Source: a virus. From it: a stretch of DNA of 32,726 nt. The notes beneath the pieces are model-generated. The model saw nothing but the letters and a program-made list of their open reading frames with translations, did not search any database and was not told where the DNA came from. Location: positions 1-32,726 of the IMG/VR virus record IMGVR_UViG_3300037189_000140, one strand, 5' to 3'. The translations under genes and the position numbers were made by a program. Within the stretch, counting starts at the first letter, position 1. Each line of letters starts with the position of its first letter. Shown one piece after another: positions 8,235 through 31,632 of the stretch.

Positions 8235-11200
8235 TCAGCGGGCGGTGCCAGCAGTTTCAGCGATCTGCTTGGCCCGCCTCTCAGTCCCCGTGGTGAACGG
8301 GATACCACCGACAGTCTGCTTCTCGCGTTTCGCCTGTTCGCGCGGTGCCTTCACCAGATCGAGAACCGGCTGGACCTTGAACCCACGCTCGCGGCGAGCG
8401 GCCTGTAGCCCCTTCCACTCCAGCTTGAGCGCCGTCATGGCACCGTTGTCCTTGCTCTTGGATGCGTCAGTGTAGGCGCGCTTGATGTCCGACGCCCGCT
8501 CCTGATAGAACTTCTCGTCCTTGTAGAACTGGTCACGCGCAAACATGCGGTTGACCCGCGAGATGGGTGCCAGACCCAGCGTACCCCACAGAGCCTCGAC
8601 CGCACCCATGTCGATGGGCTGCGTGAGAACGTCTCCGCTCATGGCTGTCTCACCCGTCACGGCTTCACGCAGGGACTTGGATGCGGCACCGATACCGCGA
8701 GGCATGAGCTTCTCCAGTGCCTTATAGTAGTTGCCGTCCGAGAGGAGGGCCATTGCGTCTGCTGCGTTTGCGCCGACACCGCCGATGGCGGGACCGGTCA
8801 GCGAGAGGATGTACTTGGCATAGGTATCTCGGTCCGAAGGTAGCTCTGCGTAGGGAGCGACCGAGAGCAGGTTGCCCTGACCAAGCGTACCGGAAACGTC
8901 TACACCGAACAGCGTCGGTACACCACGCAGCAACAGGTTTGCGAGCGTATCATCACCCACAGCCTGACGAATATCCCGCTCCAGATCGCCGCGTTCCTCG
9001 TCGTCACCAGACAGCATGTTGTAGACCAGCATGAAGACAGCGGCAGCAGGCGAGCCGATCAGACCACCAGCGATGGCAGCATGGCCGGAGAGGAACATAA
9101 GCGCACGGCGGGCGACACGGCGTTCTTCCGGCGACAGGCTCGGATCACGGAACGCATTGTAGAACTCACGCACATACAGACCTGCCAGCATGATGCGGAA
9201 CTTCTGGAACTGCCCGATGACACGGCCAAGCGTACCGCGCAGGAACACGGGGGCATTCTCCATGGAGTAGTTACCATGGGTGTCGGTGATCAACCGCATG
9301 GCTGCGTTGGCCGCAGCGAACTGACGCTCCGTCATGGGCGACATGTCAGGGTGCGCCTTGCGGAAGTCCTTCACATAGGACCGGTATGCGTCGGCGTCGT
9401 AGGTCGGCGGCGTACCGCGAGCGCTGCTCAGTTCCAGATCGTACATAGCGATGCCAGCGGACAGACGGTTGATTGCTTCGATCTTGCGGGTCAGACCACG
9501 GATACGGTCCATCACACGCTTGAACGTGTTGGAGATAAAACCATCGCCGTCCGAGGTGATGAGGCCCATTTCCTTGTTGATACCCACATCGAGTTCGCCC
9601 GACTCAGCAAGGAACATGGCGAGAGCGCGGTACTTCGGATCGACCTTGTTGATATCAAGCTGTTCCGTCAGGCGACTACCATCCCAAGCCTGCATCACCT
9701 GACCATAGCCCGTGCGCAGTGCGCGAAGCGAGTCGGTGTAGCCATGGCGCGCAGCCATCTCAGGCAGTGTGAGCATCAGGTTCTGAAGCCCCTGCTGGAT
9801 GTAATAGCTAGGTGAGAAGCCCAGCATCCAGACAGATGTGTACGAAGTAAGGGTATCAGCCAGCGTGTTCTGGACCTTGCTCTGAAGCCCATCGACGTAG
9901 CGCGCCACGATACCATTGTAGATAGCCTGACGATCCTCGCGGCCACCACCCCTAGCCTTCACTTCGCGGTCCATTTGACGCATCGCGTCGAGGATTTCGC
10001 TGTTCTTGTAGACAGCACCAACGAAGTGAGCCGATGCACGACCACGCGACAGGATTGCCTTGACCATATCGAGATCGCCAGAGGCGATGTTCTTCCGGCG
10101 TAGCTCACCCTTGCGTGCGCTGCTGGCTGCCATGACCTGAAGCTGTAGCTGAGTAGCCGTCTGCCGAAGCTGACGCGAGAGAGCCGGGTTCAGACCCTCG
10201 GCCTCGATAACGCTGTTGAGACGCTGGAAGGCGTACATCATGTCGCGCCCACCAAACATATCGTCACGCGCTTGGTTCTTCAGGAACAACTCGGTGTTAT
10301 CCGGAGCGCTGCCGTATACCGACTGGATTTCCCGCTGCATCTTGGCAGCCTCGGCACGGGTATCCGCGAAGTCCACATAGTAGTGGCGCTCGTCCTGCTC
10401 CAGCTTGTTGATCAGCTTGTAGTCACCGCCCTCCATGGCATCGAGTAGTTCCTGCGAACGCCCGACCACAACCCAGTCACCGTAACGGGTGAGCGGTGCA
10501 TAGGGGCGTGTCGGTTCGATGTTGAGCAGCGTGCGGAACTGGGTCAGGCTGTTGGCCTTGGCTTCGCGCAGCTTGTTCTTCTCGGCTGCGTCCGGTGCGC
10601 CTTCGATCAGGGCATCGTACTCTGTTTCGGTCGCCGTGATCACGGCTTCCTGCATCTGCTTCAGCGAGTTGTAGTTTAGCCGGAAGGCTTCACGCACAGA
10701 CTTCTGTGCAGCAGGCGACATCGACTGATACCACTGAACGAGGTCGTCATCGAGCGTGATCTTGGTGCCCTTGTCGTCGCCAGTGAAGTAGTCAGGATCA
10801 AACGCCCACGACTGCTGCCGGGTCATCGCTTCGATGAGACCATTGACAGTATCAGCGCCGACACCGCGCTCCTTCGCAGGCAGCGCAGCATGATCCTCGG
10901 CCCACTTCACGAAGTCCTGCTGTTGACGCTCGACGATGGCACCACGTTCCCGGCTGAGACGTGCAAACCGGCGTGCAGAGTTGATACCCTTACGGACAGC
11001 GAGGTCGATAAGCTGGTTCATCAGGCCGAAGCGGGACACAGTCCGAGTACCGATCCCTGCAAACGTATCAGTGATGGTCCTCACAGGGTCCCGAAGCGAG
11101 GCGGGTAGGCCGTTCACCAATTCATCTACACGAGCCTGCCGCTCCATAAGCGAGGAGTCTGACGCCATACGCATCAGACCCTTAACCCGGCCAGTACCTT

Positions 11201-14200
11201 CGATCACACTGTCGTGCGCCATGGCTAGGATAGTTGCCACATCGGCATTGTTGTATGTGATGCTGAACCCGACGCGGCGACCAAACTCGCGGACGAGATT
11301 AACGAGGCGCTGCCACAGGGAGGCTTGGAACCGGCCAGACTCCGACGCCATGGCAAGGACTTCTTCCACTGCGAGAGCACCTGCGTCAGGGTTCCCTTTC
11401 CATTTACCTGTACGCTTCAGGTATTCGTCAGCCGACTTACGGACTTCCGCATTGGTGCGGTAGATCGCGTTAAGGATCGAGAGCACCCGCGCACCGAAGC
11501 GGTCGCGCAGACCACGGTGCCCAAGAATTTCGTGGTAGATGGTGGCCACAACCTCAGAACCAGAGAGGTGGTTGCCTGCAATCACATGGACCGTGTTGGT
11601 TTCGGTGTCGTAGAAGCCGAGAACCGTGGGGCCGGAGAGCTGCATACGCAAGCCTTCGGGTACAGACTCGAAGTCTTTCCAGACCTTCGTCTTAGTCTGG
11701 GTCTTCCATGCACCAGCGACACGTCTGACCGCAGCTTCGGCTTCAGCCACGGATATGCCATCACCGACAGTGTCACCGATACGTTCTCTGACCATGGCTT
11801 TATTCGACGCAGTCATACCGATCAGCGCGCGGCGGATTTCACCCAAGGGCTTGCGCGCAGCGTTCATGTCCTTCAGGACACGGGCCTGAAGCGGCTGAAT
11901 CTCCTTGGCTTTCAACGCCGCGTCCACGTCGAGGTTCAGGTCGCGGTAGTCTGCGTCGGTGGCGCTCAGGTCCTGAGCGGTCTCGGTAGGTGCCTGTTCG
12001 CGGACAACCTCCGTCTCCTTCGCGCGCAGACCATAGGCTTCACCGGGGGCTACCTTCTTGATGGTGCCACCACGAATGAGATAGTCGAGCTGCGCCTTGA
12101 TGCGATCAGGGGTTGAAGTCTTGCGGTCCACGCCAGCGATGAGCGTGTCGTACTGATCCTGTGAGATGATGTTATTGTCAACGGCGTCGGTAAGTTCCTC
12201 CCGCACAGCCGCGTAGTCCAGCTCAGGCTTGCCCTTCTTCAGCGCAGCAGCCTTCGGCGCGGGCGTGGCAGCGACTTTGGGCGCAGCCTTCTTAGCAGCC
12301 GCGCGCTTGCTTGCGATTTCGTCCGCGACCAACTCGAACTCGCCTTTGTTCAGTTCAACAAGCAGTTCGATCCGGGCACGACCAGTGATCGTGCCGTCTT
12401 TGATAGCAGCGTCGAGTGCAGCCTTGGTGGGCTTGTACTGAGGGTCAGCCTTTACATCTTGAACAGTGACGGTAGGCGCTTTCCGTGGTTCTTGGGTTTT
12501 GGTGGTGCGCGTTCTGGCAGGGGCCGGTCGAGCGGCTGGCTTAGTTGCACCTGCTGGAGCAGCTCTGGTTTGTTTGCCTTTAGCCAGCGCACTTGCTTTT
12601 GACTCTTTGGCTGCACGCGATGTCCTTTTCTGTGCGTTTTCACGGGCCTTTTGCAACGCGGCCAGAGTAAAGTCGCGTGTCTCGATCTGAGCGACAAGAC
12701 CTTTACCCCGACTGGCGATTAGCTCGGCAGTAAAATAATCAGCTTCACGTTCTGTTATAATACCTTCGCGTTGTGCCGCACGCACATCTTGAATAACTTC
12801 GTCTGTCAGGGACACAGCGGGAGAGATGTCGCCAGTAACCACAACGCGAAGAGGTTCTTTCGGCTTCCGTCTGGCGAATGCCTCAGCTTTGGCAATATCA
12901 ATCTTGATTTGCTTTAGATCACTGGGACTATAGTTACCGTTAAGTGCGACAATCCACTGGTCGCGGAAGAACGGTCGGAGGGTCGCCCATGAGCGGCGAT
13001 GCACCCCAGACTTGGTTTTACTCCACTGCGCTTCTGCATCATCTTCGGTGACGCCGTACTGCGGCTCGGGGGTAAGCCGACCTTTGGTACCCATGACATC
13101 GAGGAACGGCTGTGACTCAGCCAGACGCTGGTCAAGTGCGCCAACTTCCGGGGTAGGAGGAACCGCACCCTGCGCCTGTTGGAGCGCAGCTTGACGTTGC
13201 GCAGATAGTTGCGCCTGTTGTTGCCGTTCTAGGAACTCACGAAGTTGTGCGTTATCAGCCAGCGTACCAGAGGGGGGAGCAGGCTGCGCCATGTAGCGCG
13301 GCGCAAGACCGGACTCGAACGGCAGCACACCTTGATTGAGATCAGGAGCAGCAGTCGGAACCTCGCCGGTCACACCTTCAGGCTGGAGCAGAGTTGTCGG
13401 TGCAGCCGCAGGGGGCTGCATCATACCACCTAGTTCGCGCACAGTCGTCTGACTGCCGGGGAATACGTCGAGAACACCCTGCGTACCGGGCACAGTGGCC
13501 GGGACGAAGCCACGATCAGAGATACCCACGACCACGTCTTCGGGTGTGGCGGCACGGATGTTACCATCTTCATCCACCACGAAGTCAGGCTGACCTTGCA
13601 CCTGAAGGACAGCACCCGGAGGTGGCAGCATGAGCTGCTGCTGAGGGCCAGAGACAAGACCACTGATGTCAGTGCGCGGTGTGTAAGGTGTACCCTCGAC
13701 CTGCTCGACAGCAGGACCGAGCGCAGTACCTGCGACCCTCGGAGGAACAACAGCGGGAAGTTGGTTCGCGCGGTTCCGCAAGGTCAGTACAGACGGGCCA
13801 CCGCCATACGGCTCGCCAACAAGCACGCCTTCGGTGCTGCCACTCAACAGGTCAGCCGGTTCCTTACCACCCAAGTTGAACACTGCGCCAACGGGTCCAC
13901 CGAGTGCAGCGCCAGCAGCAAAGGAGTCGATAAGGCGCGTAACATTTTCGGGTTTGCTAAAGTCCTGTCCGGTCAGGCCGAGAAGTAGAGCTTCCTGACC
14001 CGCTTCCGTGGTACCTTCAGCCACACCACCAATTGCACCGCCGACTGCACCGCGACGGAGGAGTTCAGCGCCTCTACGCTTGAGACTTGCACCAGCGGCG
14101 AGTGCTTTGGGCGCACCAAATCCTTTGAGGACACGAGCACCAAGTGCGACTTCTGGGGCAGATTCGAATAGGGCATAGGGAACAGCACCAAGCAGGGCTG

Positions 14201-15083
14201 AAACCCGTGCCTGCGCATCGTTAGCATCGGCACCCTGATCACGGAACTCACCGTAGATATCCGCTGCACCAGTGGCGTAGTTCGATCCCAGCGATGCGGC
14301 AATAGCACCACCAGCGGCGTAACGCACCAGCTTCTGCTCGGCTGCGTCCAGAGCAATACCCTCTGCTCTTTTCCTAAGCGTTTGGCGCAGCGCGACACCA
14401 GCGCCGACACGGGCAACAGTACTACCAGCAATGGCACCGAGACCACCGGTCAGGACACCTTCGAGCAGCATGGGTGATTGCTCACCGAGGTTGGCAACGA
14501 ACCACTCAATAGCGTCACCGCCGCCTTGGATATCCGAGAAGCGCCGACTGTATGGCTCAGTGCGCCGCAGGTCCTCGACCTGCTGCCTGACGATATCACC
14601 ACCAAACTTCTCAGCGCCAGCGAGCTGAAGGCCACGACCAATCAGAAGCTGCGTCGTGTCGATGCCGCGACCGAACCCCTTGGCGAAGAGTGTGCCGAGG
14701 CCGGGGTTCTTGATCCCCTGCAAGTACCCGGCGTAGCTCTGCGGATCGACAGGAACCCAGTCACCGCCCTGCGGCGCAGCAGTACCCGGCTGCCCAAGCA
14801 GCGCTTCGCTCTCCAGTGCGCTCTGCGCATCGTCCTGCGAGAACATCCGACCTTGCACAAAGAACTGCTTGGTCGAGGGACTGAAGGCGATGGACGGAGC
14901 AGACTGCGGCGCTACCTGCGGAGCACGCATCGGAACTTGTTGAAGCGCCTGCTCGCCAATGACAGCGATATCAGCCAGCGACTGCTGGAGAAACGCGGAG
15001 CCAGACCCGGACCCAGCAGGGGAGATCGGGGCGGGTACCAACGGATCGAGTGGGTTACCGAACTCCAGACCTGCCTGAGCCAT
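8235..15083 (-). CDS. Giant internal virion/polyvalent protein with zincin motif (T7 gp16-like position)
   Basis: The 2282-residue product is last in the virion operon, where T7 carries the gp16 ejection protein. Visible parts: Gly/Ala-rich hydrophobic stretches at about 200-440 that could enter membranes; a Pro/Gln-rich region about 470-690; a Lys/Ala/Pro-rich linker about 820-960; four degenerate helical modules near 756-800, 880-925, 955-1003 and 1046-1090; a zinc metallopeptidase motif H1184-E-I-L-G-H1189 preceded by a hydrophobic helix; a long helical C-terminal half; and a membrane-like segment about 1996-2024 (FLSGHAAIAGGL...). Zincin domains are known in phage polyvalent proteins delivered with DNA. 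I infer a capsid-internal protein ejected into the host. ATG 15083 has AGGAAA about eight bases upstream. No transglycosylase motif was recognised here. Confidence 0.8.
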   Translation of the reverse strand: MAQAGLEFGNPLDPLVPAPISPAGSGSGSAFLQQSLADIAVIGEQALQQVPMRAPQVAPQSAPSIAFSPSTKQFFVQGRMFSQDDAQSALESEALLGQPGTAAPQGGDWVPVDPQSYAGYLQGIKNPGLGTLFAKGFGRGIDTTQLLIGRGLQLAGAEKFGGDIVRQQVEDLRRTEPYSRRFSDIQGGGDAIEWFVANLGEQSPMLLEGVLTGGLGAIAGSTVARVGAGVALRQTLRKRAEGIALDAAEQKLVRYAAGGAIAASLGSNYATGAADIYGEFRDQGADANDAQARVSALLGAVPYALFESAPEVALGARVLKGFGAPKALAAGASLKRRGAELLRRGAVGGAIGGVAEGTTEAGQEALLLGLTGQDFSKPENVTRLIDSFAAGAALGGPVGAVFNLGGKEPADLLSGSTEGVLVGEPYGGGPSVLTLRNRANQLPAVVPPRVAGTALGPAVEQVEGTPYTPRTDISGLVSGPQQQLMLPPPGAVLQVQGQPDFVVDEDGNIRAATPEDVVVGISDRGFVPATVPGTQGVLDVFPGSQTTVRELGGMMQPPAAAPTTLLQPEGVTGEVPTAAPDLNQGVLPFESGLAPRYMAQPAPPSGTLADNAQLREFLERQQQAQLSAQRQAALQQAQGAVPPTPEVGALDQRLAESQPFLDVMGTKGRLTPEPQYGVTEDDAEAQWSKTKSGVHRRSWATLRPFFRDQWIVALNGNYSPSDLKQIKIDIAKAEAFARRKPKEPLRVVVTGDISPAVSLTDEVIQDVRAAQREGIITEREADYFTAELIASRGKGLVAQIETRDFTLAALQKARENAQKRTSRAAKESKASALAKGKQTRAAPAGATKPAARPAPARTRTTKTQEPRKAPTVTVQDVKADPQYKPTKAALDAAIKDGTITGRARIELLVELNKGEFELVADEIASKRAAAKKAAPKVAATPAPKAAALKKGKPELDYAAVREELTDAVDNNIISQDQYDTLIAGVDRKTSTPDRIKAQLDYLIRGGTIKKVAPGEAYGLRAKETEVVREQAPTETAQDLSATDADYRDLNLDVDAALKAKEIQPLQARVLKDMNAARKPLGEIRRALIGMTASNKAMVRERIGDTVGDGISVAEAEAAVRRVAGAWKTQTKTKVWKDFESVPEGLRMQLSGPTVLGFYDTETNTVHVIAGNHLSGSEVVATIYHEILGHRGLRDRFGARVLSILNAIYRTNAEVRKSADEYLKRTGKWKGNPDAGALAVEEVLAMASESGRFQASLWQRLVNLVREFGRRVGFSITYNNADVATILAMAHDSVIEGTGRVKGLMRMASDSSLMERQARVDELVNGLPASLRDPVRTITDTFAGIGTRTVSRFGLMNQLIDLAVRKGINSARRFARLSRERGAIVERQQQDFVKWAEDHAALPAKERGVGADTVNGLIEAMTRQQSWAFDPDYFTGDDKGTKITLDDDLVQWYQSMSPAAQKSVREAFRLNYNSLKQMQEAVITATETEYDALIEGAPDAAEKNKLREAKANSLTQFRTLLNIEPTRPYAPLTRYGDWVVVGRSQELLDAMEGGDYKLINKLEQDERHYYVDFADTRAEAAKMQREIQSVYGSAPDNTELFLKNQARDDMFGGRDMMYAFQRLNSVIEAEGLNPALSRQLRQTATQLQLQVMAASSARKGELRRKNIASGDLDMVKAILSRGRASAHFVGAVYKNSEILDAMRQMDREVKARGGGREDRQAIYNGIVARYVDGLQSKVQNTLADTLTSYTSVWMLGFSPSYYIQQGLQNLMLTLPEMAARHGYTDSLRALRTGYGQVMQAWDGSRLTEQLDINKVDPKYRALAMFLAESGELDVGINKEMGLITSDGDGFISNTFKRVMDRIRGLTRKIEAINRLSAGIAMYDLELSSARGTPPTYDADAYRSYVKDFRKAHPDMSPMTERQFAAANAAMRLITDTHGNYSMENAPVFLRGTLGRVIGQFQKFRIMLAGLYVREFYNAFRDPSLSPEERRVARRALMFLSGHAAIAGGLIGSPAAAVFMLVYNMLSGDDEERGDLERDIRQAVGDDTLANLLLRGVPTLFGVDVSGTLGQGNLLSVAPYAELPSDRDTYAKYILSLTGPAIGGVGANAADAMALLSDGNYYKALEKLMPRGIGAASKSLREAVTGETAMSGDVLTQPIDMGAVEALWGTLGLAPISRVNRMFARDQFYKDEKFYQERASDIKRAYTDASKSKDNGAMTALKLEWKGLQAARRERGFKVQPVLDLVKAPREQAKREKQTVGGIPFTTGTERRAKQIAETAGTAR

Positions 15084-25687: not shown

Positions 25688-26461
25688 TCAGGCTCCAAAT
25701 GGTTGCATCTTGGCGCGCAAGACGCCACGGGGGTTACCGAGATTAGCGCGGGCGCGCCGCTCCGCGATCTGAAAAACATACTGCTTCGCGTGGTACGCGG
25801 CAAGCTCGCGGTCAGTCCAGTGACTGTTGGGTAGCACCAGCAGGTGCTGAAGTGCACCGTGCAGAATGACCTCTTCGAGGTCGTCGAAGATAACCTCATC
25901 CATTGCTGCCGAATTGCGCTTGGGCTTGAGCGCCAAGAACATGCGCATCGTGTACGTTGCCTCGGCATCCGGCAGTGGGAGGATGATGTACTTGTCAGGG
26001 GTCACCTGACAGATCGAGCGAGGTGTGCTGGCATCAGCAACCACGGAGTCGGGGAGAGCAAATGTACTCCCACCGTTGTACTGTGGGTCGTTGAACTCGT
26101 CGGTGTTGAAGCTGCTCGGGTCAGTGAGGCTCCACAGCACGGAGGGGTCTTCGCCTGAATACAGGTCGGCCCACTGCGGGTAGAGCCGCAGGGCATCATC
26201 GAGTGTCAGTTTCTCAAGGTGGCTGCCGTTGACGATAGCAGCGAAGATAGCGTGCGCGTCTGTCGCATCCGGTTTGTTGTAGGCGTACTCATGGACACCG
26301 GGCAGCAGATCATACAGTGGTACCTGATAACGCCACGCGAGGGTGCGCTCGCAGGTGCGGATCGCCGCATCTCGGATGTACTGGATGATCGTCTGCGTAG
26401 GGCAGCCGGGGACACTGGGATTAACCTTGGGGACCAGCGAAGCAAACGTGCGGTTAGCCAT
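25688..26461 (-). CDS. Tail adaptor/tubular-type structural protein
   Basis: A 257-residue protein whose C-terminal third (DDLEEVILHGALQHLLVLPN...DRELAAYHAKQYVFQIAERR) is a long helical bundle like that seen in podovirus gatekeeper/tail tubular A-type proteins. The N-terminus starts with a helical segment (TQTIIQYIRDAAIRTCERTL) followed by beta-rich sequence. It overlaps the upstream adaptor gene by one base (TGATG) and lies before the tail spike gene, so it probably sits at the head-tail joint or upper tail. Function is inferred from architecture and position. Confidence 0.7.
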   Translation of the reverse strand: MANRTFASLVPKVNPSVPGCPTQTIIQYIRDAAIRTCERTLAWRYQVPLYDLLPGVHEYAYNKPDATDAHAIFAAIVNGSHLEKLTLDDALRLYPQWADLYSGEDPSVLWSLTDPSSFNTDEFNDPQYNGGSTFALPDSVVADASTPRSICQVTPDKYIILPLPDAEATYTMRMFLALKPKRNSAAMDEVIFDDLEEVILHGALQHLLVLPNSHWTDRELAAYHAKQYVFQIAERRARANLGNPRGVLRAKMQPFGA

Positions 26462-27105
26462 CAGATCACCTGCCTCGGGTCCATCCCGCCTTCTTCGGTG
26501 TCAGTGATGCTGCGAACCTGAAGGCCCGTAGCAAGGGTCTGAGCAAACGAGTCTTGGAACAGCTTGGCCCGCCCCGAGTTCACATGCTCATTGTCCACCG
26601 ACTCGGCAAGGAACACCACGCCGTCCACAGCGATGGGGAGGTACGCATCTGGCAGCAACGCAATGGCCTGAGCTATCGTGTAGGCCGGAGGGACCTGCGC
26701 GTACTCACCGACAAGCACTACCCCCGTCGAGGGACGAGGATACAGGAAGAACTTGTTGGGGTTACGCACATGGCGCATGAAGTTCACCGGAGTCCCTGCC
26801 GCCTCGTTGACCCAGTTGGGATACATCTGGTCGAGGACATCGCGGTTGACCTCAGTGACAGCATCACCGTTCTTGATCTGGAAAATCTCGACCAGCCGCA
26901 GCGAGTCGGACGGGCAACTCTGAAGGACCGTGTTCGCCGTAGTGGGGATATCACCAATGAAGGAGAACAAGTCAGGACGCAGCACCGACATACGCTTCAG
27001 CGTCTGGTTCACCCAACCAAGCATGAGGGTGTCGCTGTAGCGATACGGTGCGCGTGTGTCCTGAATCAGGTTCCGCGCTTCAGTGATGATATCCGCAGGT
27101 GTCAT
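26461..27105 (-). CDS. Phage adaptor protein (DUF6682-like)
   Basis: The 214-residue protein starts with ITEARNLIQDTRAPYRYSDT and LMLGWVNQTLKRMSVLRPDLF, the recognisable opening of phage adaptor proteins of the DUF6682 type: an I-x-x-A-R-x-x-x-x-D-x-x-x-x-R-Y-S/W-D helix and an RPDLF turn. A beta-rich core (NKFFLYPRPSTGVVLVGEYA) and a closing helix (YLPIAVDGVVFLAESVD) complete a usual adaptor length. It would form the ring between portal and tail. ATG overlaps the preceding small gene as ATGA. Confidence 0.78.
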   Translation of the reverse strand: MTPADIITEARNLIQDTRAPYRYSDTLMLGWVNQTLKRMSVLRPDLFSFIGDIPTTANTVLQSCPSDSLRLVEIFQIKNGDAVTEVNRDVLDQMYPNWVNEAAGTPVNFMRHVRNPNKFFLYPRPSTGVVLVGEYAQVPPAYTIAQAIALLPDAYLPIAVDGVVFLAESVDNEHVNSGRAKLFQDSFAQTLATGLQVRSITDTEEGGMDPRQVI

Positions 27106-27380
27106 TCAGGCCAACCCTGTGCAGCTTCCGCAGCCAACTCAGGATCAGTATACACTGGTTCTTCGGGGATGTCAGTAGCCAGATCGAGACCCTTGCGCGG
27201 CTTACGTCCACGCTTCGGCTGAGTGATCTCGTCGATCTTCTCCGCTACAAACGGAGTGATGAAGCGTTCGGGGTACGCCTCTTGCTCCGAGATGACCTCG
27301 CACTCCGGGTGGACTGCCAGCCGTTCGTTGTGCTCGTAGATGAACCCGTCCTTCTTGACGCGGATATATTGGGTGCTCAT
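27102..27380 (-). CDS. Small acidic/basic phage protein, 92 residues, unknown
   Basis: The product begins MSTQYIRVKKDGFIYEHNER, an N-terminal beta-strand pair common in small virion-module proteins, contains a basic patch (PKRGRKPRKG, about residues 54-63) and ends with an acidic tail. It overlaps genes on both sides by four bases (ATGA), so it is tightly coupled within the small-gene cluster. The function is unknown; the basic patch hints at nucleic acid or head-tail contact. Confidence 0.7.
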   Translation of the reverse strand: MSTQYIRVKKDGFIYEHNERLAVHPECEVISEQEAYPERFITPFVAEKIDEITQPKRGRKPRKGLDLATDIPEEPVYTDPELAAEAAQGWPE

Positions 27381-27541
27381 TTCATCTTCCTCGATTTGCC
27401 AGCCTCGCTGAGAGCGATAGCAATGGCCTGCTTGCGGGACTTCACGACAGGTGCCTTCTTCGGACCCTTGGGGTCCTTACCCCCGTGGAGAGTACCACGT
27501 TTGAACTCACCCATGACGACAGCCACTTTGTTCTTCGGCAT
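27377..27541 (-). CDS. Small basic protein, DUF6496-like
   Basis: This 54-residue protein reads MPKNKVAVVMGEFKRGTLHG, then a Lys-rich linker, then KSRKQAIAIALSEAGKSRKMK. The M-G-E-F-x-x-G-T-L and K-Q-A-I-A-I-A-L-S-E-A blocks are the marks of a small family (DUF6496-like) seen in many environmental phages. The role is not known. ATG 27541 is used rather than a longer frame to 27613 that would enter the previous gene. One base separates it from the upstream stop at 27543. Confidence 0.75.
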   Translation of the reverse strand: MPKNKVAVVMGEFKRGTLHGGKDPKGPKKAPVVKSRKQAIAIALSEAGKSRKMK

Positions 27542-27542
27542 G

Positions 27543-27779
27543 TCACTTACCCTTTCGCTTACCGGAGGGTGACACCGGCCACGATTGCCGTGCGGGTCCG
27601 GTCTTCTTACCACTCATAGTCTTGCGTTCGCTGGCGGTCAACTTCTTGGCAGCAGCCTCGGGTCGACAGGCGGGATAGCTACGTGCCGACTTCTCAGAGC
27701 CGGATCGCCCGCAGGCTTTACCGGTCTTCACATCGACCCACTTCTCACCGAACCATTTGCCGAGGCCGCCCTTGCTCAT
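27543..27779 (-). CDS. Small basic protein, DUF5872-like
   Basis: The 78-residue product starts MSKGGLGKWFGEKWVDVKTG and carries CGRS...RSYPACRPEAAA. The G-L-x-x-W-F-x-E-K-W-V-D opening and the C-G-R-S / Y-P-x-C-R-P pair match the DUF5872 type of small proteins found in T4-like and other environmental phages. The tail is Lys/Ser/Thr-rich. The two conserved cysteines may bind a metal. It overlaps the preceding gene by four bases. Function unknown. Confidence 0.75.
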   Translation of the reverse strand: MSKGGLGKWFGEKWVDVKTGKACGRSGSEKSARSYPACRPEAAAKKLTASERKTMSGKKTGPARQSWPVSPSGKRKGK

Positions 27780-27943
27780 TTCTTCACCCGGTTATCTGGA
27801 CCCTTCCACCCGCCGCCACGCTTCTTGTACTCCTTGGACGCCCACGCATTGGCGTAAGCGCTAGGGTATACATCGAACTTGGCCTTGGCCTGTGCCTTGA
27901 CACTGGACCAAAGCGAAGGGTTAGTGGGCTTCGGACTAGCCAT
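27776..27943 (-). CDS. Small basic phage protein, 55 residues
   Basis: The frame encodes MASPKPTNPSLWSSVKAQAK then AKFDVYPSAYANAWASKEYK and a Gly/Lys-rich end (KRGGGWKGPDNRVKK). The F-D-V-Y-P-S-A-Y-A-N-x-W motif is one I recognise from small uncharacterised phage proteins, often next to DUF5872 and DUF6321 genes. GGAAG lies upstream of ATG 27943, inside the preceding gene, which it overlaps by eight bases; its stop overlaps the next start by four. Function unknown. Confidence 0.75.
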   Translation of the reverse strand: MASPKPTNPSLWSSVKAQAKAKFDVYPSAYANAWASKEYKKRGGGWKGPDNRVKK

Positions 27944-28118
27944 CTTGCTTCTTCCCGAACAGGCGCTGTATGGTCTCCGTCTCGTAGATACGGATCGCGG
28001 TCCAGATGATAGTGAATACGGCGGCTACCGCCGGGAGCATATCTACTATAGTCCCCAACACTGTTAGTACGGACAGTGCGTCTATAGCATATTTCGCGGT
28101 CTCGTCATGGTCTGTCAT
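27936..28118 (-). CDS. Small membrane protein, second holin candidate
   Basis: A 60-residue protein, MTDHDETAKYAIDALSVLTV followed by LGTIVDMLPAVAAVFTIIWT and AIRIYETETIQRLFGKKQDG. It has one or two hydrophobic helices (about 14-27 and 28-43), an acidic N-terminus and a basic C-terminus. W-T-A-I-R-I-Y-E-T-x-T-x-x-x-L is a pattern I associate with small phage holin-type proteins. It sits in the small basic-gene cluster, 5 kb from the endolysin, so it could be a holin, an antiholin, or a membrane protein for DNA entry. Confidence 0.7.
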   Translation of the reverse strand: MTDHDETAKYAIDALSVLTVLGTIVDMLPAVAAVFTIIWTAIRIYETETIQRLFGKKQDG

Positions 28119-28119
28119 G

Positions 28120-28374
28120 TCAGCAGTTCCACGCGCGAAGTGATTTGTTGATCCGGCTGTTCGGGTCGCGCGCCGTTTTCTCAGACGTGAGCTTCTTCTT
28201 CATGCCCTCCATCCGCGCACAGAATGACTTCTTGCGCGGGCCACCTTCAGGCTGCGGGGGCTTCAGACCGGGCTTGCCGGGGTTGGCCTTGTTGTAGGAG
28301 GCACGACCTTTGGCGTTGAGACCGCCCTTCTCAGACTTGCCTTCCGCTCTTTGCCATGCCGGTGTCTTAGCCAT
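28120..28374 (-). CDS. Small basic protein, DUF6321-like
   Basis: The 84-residue product contains AWQRAEGKSEKGGLNAKGRA, LKPPQPEGGPRKKSFCARME and GMKKKLTSEKTARDPNSRIN, ending SLRAWNC. These blocks are strongly conserved in the DUF6321 family of phage proteins, whose role is not established. It is rich in Lys, Arg and Gly, with a conserved Cys at S-F-C-A-R-M and another at the C-terminus. ATG 28374 overlaps the preceding stop (TGATG); a GTG three bases earlier is possible. Confidence 0.8.
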   Translation of the reverse strand: MAKTPAWQRAEGKSEKGGLNAKGRASYNKANPGKPGLKPPQPEGGPRKKSFCARMEGMKKKLTSEKTARDPNSRINKSLRAWNC

Positions 28375-28589
28375 CACCGATTCCTATAGCCACCGTAGCC
28401 GGTACCGGTACGGTTGATGAGCTTGGACTCCTTGGCTTCCTCGCGCTGCGTGCGGTTGCCGCGTGCGACGGCCTTCGCGGGATCAAGGATCGCCTTGGCC
28501 GCAGGAGTGTTCTGCGCCTTCGCCATGTCACGAGCCGTGGTAGCCTTGCGGGCTGCCTCAAGATCAATACGGATGGGGTACTGGGGCAT
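28374..28589 (-). CDS. Small helical protein, 71 residues, unknown
   Basis: The protein starts MPQYPIRIDLEAARKATTAR, contains Ala/Lys-rich helices (DMAKAQNTPAAKAILDPAKA) and ends TGTGYGGYRNR. AAAGGAA lies six bases before ATG 28589. It opens the run of seven small genes. No family is recognised. The tyrosine/glycine C-terminus and basic charge could indicate a structural or DNA-contact role, but this is a guess. Confidence 0.7.
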   Translation of the reverse strand: MPQYPIRIDLEAARKATTARDMAKAQNTPAAKAILDPAKAVARGNRTQREEAKESKLINRTGTGYGGYRNR

Positions 28590-28606: not shown

Positions 28607-29527
28607 TTATGCGATTCTTTGCGCGACAACAATAGCCGGAGGAGTAGCCGGAATAGCCGGGGTCACACCGGGATTAGCGGCAACCGCCGCGCGATAATGC
28701 AACGTGACGCTGGTATTCTGCGGGTACCAATATATTTCGATGTACTGCCCAGCGGTCACAGTTTCAAAAATCTCGTAGGCGACCAGATTAGTGCCGCCAT
28801 CTCCGGCTTTAGGGACCACTATACGCCCATTGGTGTTAGCGATGTTGGTACCGTTTTTGGCGAACCAGATATCCACGTACCTATCGGATGCCCCGGAGTT
28901 ATCAAACTGGAGGCTGGCGTTGATCCGGTAGGTGCCTGCCGCAGCAAATGTAATGCGGCTATTGCTGACCACCGTGATACCAGCGCCAGCGACCAAAGCA
29001 GTAGCAAACTCAACCGCAGTAGCCGCTGTCGTACTGCCAGTTTGGTTTACCGTATCTGCGTCGTAGAACGATGCGTATGCCCGATCTGTAATCGCGTTGA
29101 ACGGGAGAGTAACTCCCGAGATCGCGCCGCCTGTGATCGAGACACTGTTCGAGTTCTGGGTGGCCATGGTGCCGAGGCCGAAATTGGTCCGGGCAGTCGC
29201 GGCATCCGACGCTCCTGTGCCGCCATCTGCGACAGCGAGATCAGTGATACCCGTGATCGTCCCGCCCGTAATGGCAGCCTTGGCGATGCTTACCGAACCA
29301 GTGCCGTTGGGGGAAAGTACGAGGCTACCGTTGGCGTTCAGCGTCGAGATTGTGTTCCCGGCGAACTGGATGTTGCCCACCGAAGCAGACACAGTGCCTA
29401 GCTTCATAGCCGTGGCAACGCCTGTGCCGCTGTAGACCGTCTGCTCGGTCGCAGTAGGACCGCCGCTGATGTGCAGCAACTGACTGTACGTGCTGTTGAT
29501 CGCTGATCCGGTCAGGTTGGTAGGCAT
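28607..29527 (-). CDS. Fibre/collar-type protein with C-terminal jelly-roll-like domain
   Basis: The 306-residue product has a repeat-rich N-terminal half of fibre type (TLNANGSLVLSPNGTGSVSI, then DLAVADGGTGASDAATARTN and FGLGTMATQ, a very common tail-fibre hinge motif). The C-terminal half (about 165-306) looks like a C1q/TNF-like beta sandwich: FAAAGTYRINASLQFDN, VDIWFAKNGTNIANT, GQYIEIYWYPQNTSVTLHY. Such domains trimerise and often bind receptors. It lies among capsid genes, so it may be a head or collar fibre. AGGAA precedes ATG 29527. Confidence 0.78.
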   Translation of the reverse strand: MPTNLTGSAINSTYSQLLHISGGPTATEQTVYSGTGVATAMKLGTVSASVGNIQFAGNTISTLNANGSLVLSPNGTGSVSIAKAAITGGTITGITDLAVADGGTGASDAATARTNFGLGTMATQNSNSVSITGGAISGVTLPFNAITDRAYASFYDADTVNQTGSTTAATAVEFATALVAGAGITVVSNSRITFAAAGTYRINASLQFDNSGASDRYVDIWFAKNGTNIANTNGRIVVPKAGDGGTNLVAYEIFETVTAGQYIEIYWYPQNTSVTLHYRAAVAANPGVTPAIPATPPAIVVAQRIA

Positions 29528-30708: not shown

Positions 30709-31632
30709 TCAGAACTGGACGACAGCAGTCGAGAGCGCTTCACCCTTGATGACCTTGTAGCCATAGACCTGAAGACCACGAATGATGTTACCGAAGGTCG
30801 TTTCCGACCGGATGGTTTCCATGTTCGTCATCTGCGAGGCGAAGGTGAAGCCCATCTTGTGGCCCGAGATCAGGTTGTACTTACCCGACGAGACCAACAG
30901 GTTGTGGCTGACGTAGATCGTGAAGCGGTCTACCATGCCAAGGCGTCCGTTGCGGAGCACCGACATGCTATCACCGGTCAGCGAGGCGTCCTTCAGTTCC
31001 GACTTCTTGATCAGACCTGCCATCTTGGCGGGGATGACGAGAAAGCGGTCGCCTTCCGGGGCGTTTGCTTCGTCAAGTACGGTGCCCATATCGACGATCA
31101 GGTCGATCACCGAGGTGGTGCCGCCAGCGCCGTCCTTGGTCACGGTGAGCGGAGCGCCCGTGGTGCCGAGGTTGAACGAAGCCGACTGCTCACCGGCAGT
31201 AGCGCCCTTGTTGGTTGCGGCAATACCCGGCAGGATGTCGGTCAGCACGCGCTGGTCGATCTTGATCTTCATACGCTCGGAAGCGTCCTTCGACCAAGTG
31301 TCCATCAGGTTGATGTCCGACTGAACCTTGTCCACGTCGTCCTCGACGCAGGCAAAGTACTCACCCTTGTCGATCACAAGCTGAATTTTTGGCTTGTCGG
31401 GGTTCTCAACCGTCAGCGACTGACCCTTGACGTAGTCGCGGATGGTGATTTCCGGGGTCGTGCGGATGTTGACGGTGTCACCGTACTGGCGGATTTCACC
31501 TTCATAGTCGGTGTTCGAGATCGCTGCGAGCACGGTGGCATCGTAGAAGTTCTCGATCAGCTTACCCGACCAGATTTCGGGGATGAAGTTACCCGAGTAG
31601 TTCGGGTTACCGGGAGAGACGGGATACGACAT
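30709..31632 (-). CDS. Major capsid protein (P22/HK97-fold)
   Basis: The 307-residue protein follows the scaffold gene and reads as a coat protein: a short N-arm (MSYPVSPGNPNYSGNFIPEI) leading to LIENFYDATVLAAISNTDYE, then GDTVNIRTTPEITIRDYVKG, a spine-helix region (DASERMKIKIDQRVLTDILP), the P-domain segment GDRFLVIPAKMAGLIKKSEL, and a C-terminal A-domain VYGYKVIKGEALSTAVVQF. The layout matches P22-like/HK97-fold coat proteins of podoviruses. No extra Ig-like domain is seen. AAGGA lies seven bases before ATG 31632, and a stable hairpin follows the stop, both suited to high expression. Confidence 0.9.
   Translation of the reverse strand: MSYPVSPGNPNYSGNFIPEIWSGKLIENFYDATVLAAISNTDYEGEIRQYGDTVNIRTTPEITIRDYVKGQSLTVENPDKPKIQLVIDKGEYFACVEDDVDKVQSDINLMDTWSKDASERMKIKIDQRVLTDILPGIAATNKGATAGEQSASFNLGTTGAPLTVTKDGAGGTTSVIDLIVDMGTVLDEANAPEGDRFLVIPAKMAGLIKKSELKDASLTGDSMSVLRNGRLGMVDRFTIYVSHNLLVSSGKYNLISGHKMGFTFASQMTNMETIRSETTFGNIIRGLQVYGYKVIKGEALSTAVVQF

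Follow-up and report, generated by a model that had tools for sequence, protein, structure and literature searches.

Short basic proteins of the DUF6321 and DUF5872 families in a phage late operon are candidate internal head proteins

Introduction

The closest described counterparts of the genes considered here encode the internal head proteins of phage T4, one of which, IPI, blocks a restriction enzyme. The T4 internal proteins bear a ten-residue targeting leader, and T4 gp21 cleaves after L/I-x-E (PMC9026906). In the T4 record this leader reads MKTYQEFIAE in ipII and ipIII and MKTFKEFTST in ipI. Literature mentions of the families DUF6321, DUF5872 and DUF6496 are scarce, and we found none for DUF6321 or DUF6496. 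Here we describe members of all three in a run of short genes in an IMG/VR virus record, the whole of which (32,726 bases) is referred to below as the window.

Results

The late operon of the window lies on the minus strand and encodes a major capsid protein (MCP; 30709..31632; phrog_267 major head protein, E 1.4e-57), a fibre-like protein (28607..29527; phrog_1591 tail fiber, E 2.4e-5), an SU10-type head-tail adaptor (26461..27105; PF24175, 83.1 bits), a tail spike, an amidase, a spanin and an internal virion protein. An earlier note on this DNA had described seven small coupled genes between fibre and adaptor, and all seven short minus-strand open reading frames, here g1 to g7, were confirmed, with overlaps of 1-8 nt or gaps of 1 nt. 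The fibre gene and g1 are 17 nt apart; g1 and g2 overlap by 1 or 4 nt, g2 having an alternative GTG start at 28377; g2 and g3 are separated by 1 nt; g3 and g4 overlap by 8 nt and g4 and g5 by 4 nt (ATGA-type); g5 and g6 are again 1 nt apart; and g6 overlaps g7, and g7 the adaptor gene, by 4 nt each.

The assignment of three of these proteins to DUF6496-, DUF5872- and DUF6321-type families was borne out by Pfam matches above the gathering cutoffs, narrowly so for two matches to DUF5872. The g2 product (28120..28374, minus strand; 84 aa from ATG, net charge +15) matches PF19846 DUF6321 over positions 1-72 of 72 (71.5 bits; cutoff 28.5), and g6 (27377..27541, minus strand; 54 aa, net +12) matches PF20106 DUF6496 (45.6 bits; cutoff 24). 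Two neighbouring genes divide PF19197 DUF5872 between them: g4 (27776..27943, minus strand; 55 aa, net +9; FDVYPSAYANAW) matches positions 1-39 with 27.7 bits and g5 (27543..27779, minus strand; 78 aa, net +15) positions 53-100 with 27.8 bits, both barely above the cutoff of 27.5. The PF19197 model is a 116-position domain in one chain, and g4 and g5 together span most of it as two genes. By profile matching, then, g4 and g5 are the N- and C-terminal parts (DUF5872-N and DUF5872-C) of a single family carried on separate genes. Since they match different portions of the model, the 'F-D-V-Y-P-S-A-Y' protein and the 'DUF5872' protein, which had been listed separately, are parts of one family.

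The remaining three proteins are of a different kind. No Pfam, PHROG or NCBIfam match was found for g1 (28374..28589, minus strand; 71 aa, pI 10.5, basic). The g3 product (27936..28118, minus strand; 60 aa) is acidic, hydrophobic and holin-like by appearance only; searches of the same three collections returned no family above cutoff and no holin family. The seventh, g7 (27102..27380, minus strand; 92 aa), is an acidic companion of the adaptor. Five of the seven (g1, g2, g4, g5 and g6) are indeed basic, with pI 10.2-10.9 and net charges of +8 to +15, but g3 and g7 depart from the 'mostly basic' description (pI 4.7 and 4.85). Likewise, the conserved cysteines that had been attributed to most members are confined, in alignments, to a pair in g2 and an invariant pair in g5; the other five lack them, g4 of the window included. 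PADLOC found no defence-system match.

Relatives of g5 occur in at least 80 IMG/VR loci, in which neighbours were counted within 1.5 kb. Among the matches listed, g4 lies on the same strand within this distance in 80/80 g5 loci, an association that is more than chance; the corresponding counts, among these same matches, are 52/80 for g2, 48/80 for g7, 46/80 for the adaptor and 22/80 for g6. The g4 stop falls within about 10 nt of the start of the g5 domain in 92 of the 98 loci having two separate genes, which makes translational coupling of the pair nearly universal, and in four further loci both profiles match inside one ORF. DUF6496 (g6) is loosely linked to this core; in 10 loci it forms one fused gene with g4, with g6 in front. 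In the reverse test, g4 or g5 was found within 1.5 kb in 6/80 DUF6321-anchored loci, and g2 therefore represents a widespread family that is often joined by g4-g5 as a non-obligate partner. Genes for an SU10-like adaptor and a Mu-type capsid protein, representing a second head lineage, are found close by in many g2-anchored loci, and 536 phage records of the collection, for the most part marine cyanophages and pelagiphages, contain DUF6321 homologues.

The genes outside this core follow other logic. Relatives of g1 were found in four loci, the window's own included; it is nearly private to close relatives of the window and no conserved part of the set. Those of g3 (32 loci) usually adjoin g2 without g4 or g5, which does not support the proposal that the membrane protein acts as a partner of the set. 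The g7 gene usually overlaps the adaptor gene by 4 nt and goes with it, probably as a head-tail structural protein outside the basic set. With DUF6321 also often occurring without g4 or g5, we reject the seven-part system that the earlier note had put forward; the recurrence across unrelated phages that it expected holds for the core families, which co-occur, but not for the seven-gene set.

The core families recur in pelagiphages, a roseophage, a cyanopodovirus and T4-like cyanophages. DUF5872-N, DUF5872-C and DUF6321 form a triad within about 1 kb in pelagiphage HTVC027P (gp49, gp50 and gp52) and in cyanopodovirus P-SCSP2, where it sits between the scaffold and MCP genes, and roseophage CRP-7 has a divergent triad directly upstream of the large terminase gene, its g4-like member being recognised by eye only. 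Passages of the HTVC027P transcriptome paper yielded no gene-level values for the expression timing of these genes. The g4-g5 pair of DSL-LC04 is flanked by cement protein and adaptor, core-family genes of HTVC115P lie near the MCP gene, and DUF6321 immediately follows MCP in P-SCSP1u. In T4-like cyanophages the three domains are joined in single chains encoded in the TerS to TerL interval, namely S-SM2 SSM2_109 (cluster T4-GC 119), ACG-2014f gp131 and S-SCSM1 gp029 (517 aa). Among the fetched sequences, 33 ORFs fuse g2 and g5, and 4 of the 33 also contain g4 by the profile used.

Such head-gene neighbourhoods, seen in several lineages, support a location inside the head. The interval between TerS and TerL, and the proximity to terminase in CRP-7, CRP-2 and C72C1, would also suit DNA-packaging accessories, that is, small basic helpers of terminase or of DNA entry that are in virions as passengers only. 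We regard this as unlikely, because the neighbours in cyanopodoviruses, HTVC115P, DSL-LC04 and the window are MCP, cement protein or adaptor, and because the leaders and protease-like sites described below indicate a prohead core. Core-family genes adjoin lysis genes (peptidase M15 or lysozyme) in several pelagiphages and in S-CRES1, which weighs against internal head proteins. This arrangement, together with the resemblance of g3 to a small holin and its frequent position beside g2, would instead suit late proteins that stay outside the virion and affect the nucleoid, translation or lysis in the dying host, with g3 as the holin and the basic proteins as accessories. That explanation seems improbable to us, given that the domains lie within head-gene blocks of several lineages and that chains bearing them have been detected in purified virions.

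The virion data come from published mass spectrometry of homologues. CsCl-purified virions of S-CREM2 contained gp137 (4 unique peptides), its neighbour gp136 (8 unique peptides) and gp160 (7 unique peptides) (PMC10665884 Table 3). The C-terminus of gp137 is a DUF6321 domain (E 3.5e-10), the N-terminus of gp136 reads MQTFSMFFSE, and gp160 contains DUF5872-C (34 bits) and DUF5872-N, the latter scoring 13 bits against a profile without cyanophage forms and 50 bits when the profile contains two related sequences from cyanophages. Coverage of gp137 was just 4.1%, and its peptides possibly lie outside DUF6321 (PMC10665884). S-SCSM1 gp029, which carries all three domains by HMM, is annotated 'virion protein' in its record, and the study describing S-SCSM1 reports a mass-spectrometric count of 45 virion proteins (PMC9602691); the assignment of gp029 is that of the record label and the paper's text, with no peptide table. 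S-SZBM1_192, which combines a leader with DUF6321, is missing from the 30-protein virion list of S-SZBM1 (PMC9146016), and this weighs against an internal position, although Lys/Arg-rich proteins yield few usable tryptic peptides.

An external or vertex-associated position in the head, for cement, decoration or fibre attachment, would agree with the fibre genes found as neighbours and with the cement protein in DSL-LC04. We consider it very improbable. P-SCSP1u, with DUF6321 right after MCP, is reported to have no decoration protein. Its cryo-EM report, in the part consulted, names no protein of the kind proposed here, a silence that fits an internal disordered protein but also an absent one. 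The leaders and prohead-protease-like sites, moreover, are typical of internal proteins.

These sites were found at the borders of the fused domains, or beads. A Glu lies 1-2 residues upstream of the fused DUF6321 bead, which is marked by an AAW motif, in 47/51 non-redundant chains, compared with 6-20 of 51 when the same test is applied to non-overlapping windows further upstream. The fuller pattern [ILVMF]xE is present at this border in 26/51 chains, versus 0-5 in the other windows. The residues ahead of the border Glu differ between chains (LSE, VAE, VSE, LEE, IEE, VDE), which leaves the Glu itself as the conserved position. DUF5872-C beads have [ILVMF]xE directly upstream (0) or about 5-6 residues away, and the pattern at the DUF5872-N bead is weaker and scattered. 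The predicted cut bead GAAWTRKEG begins about where the free-standing protein begins (MAKTPAWQRAEG).

T4-like leaders occur on DUF6321 chains as MKTYSQFIVE (L176) and MKTFKQYITE (S-SZBM1_192), and in L206 the sequence SFGQYIKE stands immediately before VAAWQR. Leader-like N-termini in T4-like loci were counted in 13/269 ORFs within 1 kb of DUF6321 versus 5/527 farther away, figures that are descriptive because the ORF counts take in unreal ORFs and related sequences; the excess is mostly due to a conserved next gene, phrog_1742. As a separate observation, S-SZBM1_194, a neighbouring chain, carries a predicted SAM lyase. A T4-type capsid-targeting leader (MKTYQEFIAE type) is absent from 7/7 window proteins and a prohead protease was not identified in the window, both of which weigh against an internal head assignment.

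Among non-redundant DUF6321 tails, both cysteines are present in 153/177, neither in 16/177 and one only in 8/177, and the DUF5872-N sequences have both or neither across 30 aligned sequences; the paired pattern suggests a disulfide or a shared metal site, with counts that are inflated by relatedness. A PDB sequence search gave no match for the g2, g4 and g5 profiles or for g6. AlphaFold models of g2 (pLDDT 82, pTM 0.52) and g5 (pLDDT 78, pTM 0.63), which are of moderate confidence, likewise had no significant PDB match.

Discussion

The explanation that we favour, and hold to be reasonably probable, is that the basic proteins of this locus, surely g2, g4 and g5 and probably g6, are small cationic DNA-associated internal head proteins. 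It rests on the long chains that their relatives form in T4-like cyanophages and that others have detected in purified virions, on bead borders that are protease-like and leaders that are T4-like, and on the strong positive charge of the proteins. The virion or ejection role suggested in the earlier note thereby gains independent support from published homologue virion mass spectrometry, protease-like sites and targeting leaders. What we infer from these data is that the proteins lie inside the head, bind DNA and are ejected, that the chains are cut, and that the window proteins behave like the cyanophage chains.

The basic proteins would be made late alongside the capsid, then enclosed with the DNA and held to it by Lys/Arg contacts. 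By analogy, an association with DNA is plausible because lysine-DNA contacts are known for the T4 internal proteins (PMC3012670). They may then enter the next host with the DNA, as the T4 proteins do, where they might balance charge locally, protect against restriction or contribute to an early takeover. In T4-like cyanophages, long chains of beads, some with a capsid-targeting leader, would be trimmed by the prohead protease into predicted pieces of about the size of the proteins singly encoded in the window. In the window phage, as in other small phages, translationally coupled cistrons would yield the same units ready-cut. The published opinion that basic proteins add little to the neutralisation of phage DNA (PMC3281028) weighs against proteins of this type inside the head. 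Bulk neutralisation of genome charge was considered separately and is unlikely as a main role: by a rough estimate, even ~360 copies of each, as for a T4 internal protein, would cover only part of the phosphates.

A placement inside the virion would hand several widespread families a testable role. It would also mean that one set of head components can come either from an operon or from a polyprotein that is cut, and it would challenge the view of basic proteins as minor in phage heads. If they are ejected, these proteins would belong to the earliest phage products at work in hosts that include some of the ocean's most abundant bacteria. More speculatively, and only as a tentative suggestion, DUF6321, DUF5872 and their relatives may constitute a mobile set of small cationic beads, many of them bearing a single Cys pair, that packs in virions as a viral nucleoprotein, is encoded as an operon or a protease-cut polyprotein, and is common to unrelated tailed phages and, via DUF5872, to giant algal viruses.

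Of the known systems, T4 IPI, IPII and IPIII (and Alt) offer the closest comparison, being small, basic, late-made, packed with DNA and ejected (PMC9026906, PMC3012670). Their leader MKTYQEFIAE resembles that of some cyanophage DUF6321 chains, and they are cut after L/I-x-E. However, no sequence relation was detected between the mature domains, the window proteins are short separate cistrons without a leader, and the DUF6321 and DUF5872 families have Cys pairs that the T4 proteins lack. The cyanophage chains SSM2_109, ACG-2014f gp131 and S-SCSM1 gp029 have all three of DUF5872-C, DUF5872-N and DUF6321. There the domains follow one another as C, N, DUF6321 within a single long polypeptide that also has linkers and additional beads, whereas the window encodes them one by one, as DUF6321, N, C. 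The large algal viruses, as exemplified by Chrysochromulina parva virus BQ1_105, share the Pfam family DUF5872 (PMC12085832), a link made by Pfam matches that only just reach the cutoff and by the annotation in one paper (PMC12085832); the phages described here differ in splitting its two parts into separate adjacent genes. Finally, the basic proteins A278L, A282L and A437L of chlorovirus PBCV-1, which are packaged with its dsDNA, provide an analogy only (PMC3281028).

Further genes and candidate internal proteins

Of the seven short genes between the fibre and adaptor genes, g7 (27102-27380) goes together with the adaptor gene. A tblastn search of the phage collection found no relatives of g7. 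Its product is acidic apart from the stretch KRGRKPRK, which recalls an AT-hook. Elsewhere in the window, the minus strand encodes a 2282-aa protein (8235-15083), which is a candidate for an ejected protein of this phage. In its C-terminal part it matches phrog_10089 and phrog_11358, groups of DarB-like antirestriction proteins and proteins of giant phages.

The small basic family phrog_7595 is present in 48 loci of the fetched set (e.g. L080:9556-9837, L001:1832-2116 and L004:5017-5256). Its members end in a motif of the type RKSxxARHxxxxxxKxxARYWSxKxW, similar to the DUF6321 C-terminus, and match DUF5754 weakly, an annotation which also exists in an algal giant virus. Additional short beads with a Cys pair occur in the cyanophage chains (L326, S-SCSM1 gp029; L091, SSM2_109; and L328), for example CWDGYEKKGxKxxFGKxYxNCV or YCPKCEKxETxxECAYGPxYW; SSM2_109 also contains a DUF192 domain.

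The 707-aa lysine-rich chain S-SZBM1_194 (L089:3502-5625) is flanked by the small terminase gene on one side and the large on the other. Near its C-terminus is a predicted S-adenosylmethionine lyase, preceded by KKEGFITYREFIAEG, which is like the T4 targeting leader; the chain is possibly an internal protein that brings in an anti-restriction enzyme. Immediately downstream of the DUF6321 chain in T4-like loci is a conserved phrog_1742 gene (L189:259-582 and homologues). Its product is likely an additional internal protein; the N-terminus, MKSFKQFLSES, strongly resembles a T4 capsid-targeting leader (MKTYQEFIAE in ipII/ipIII).
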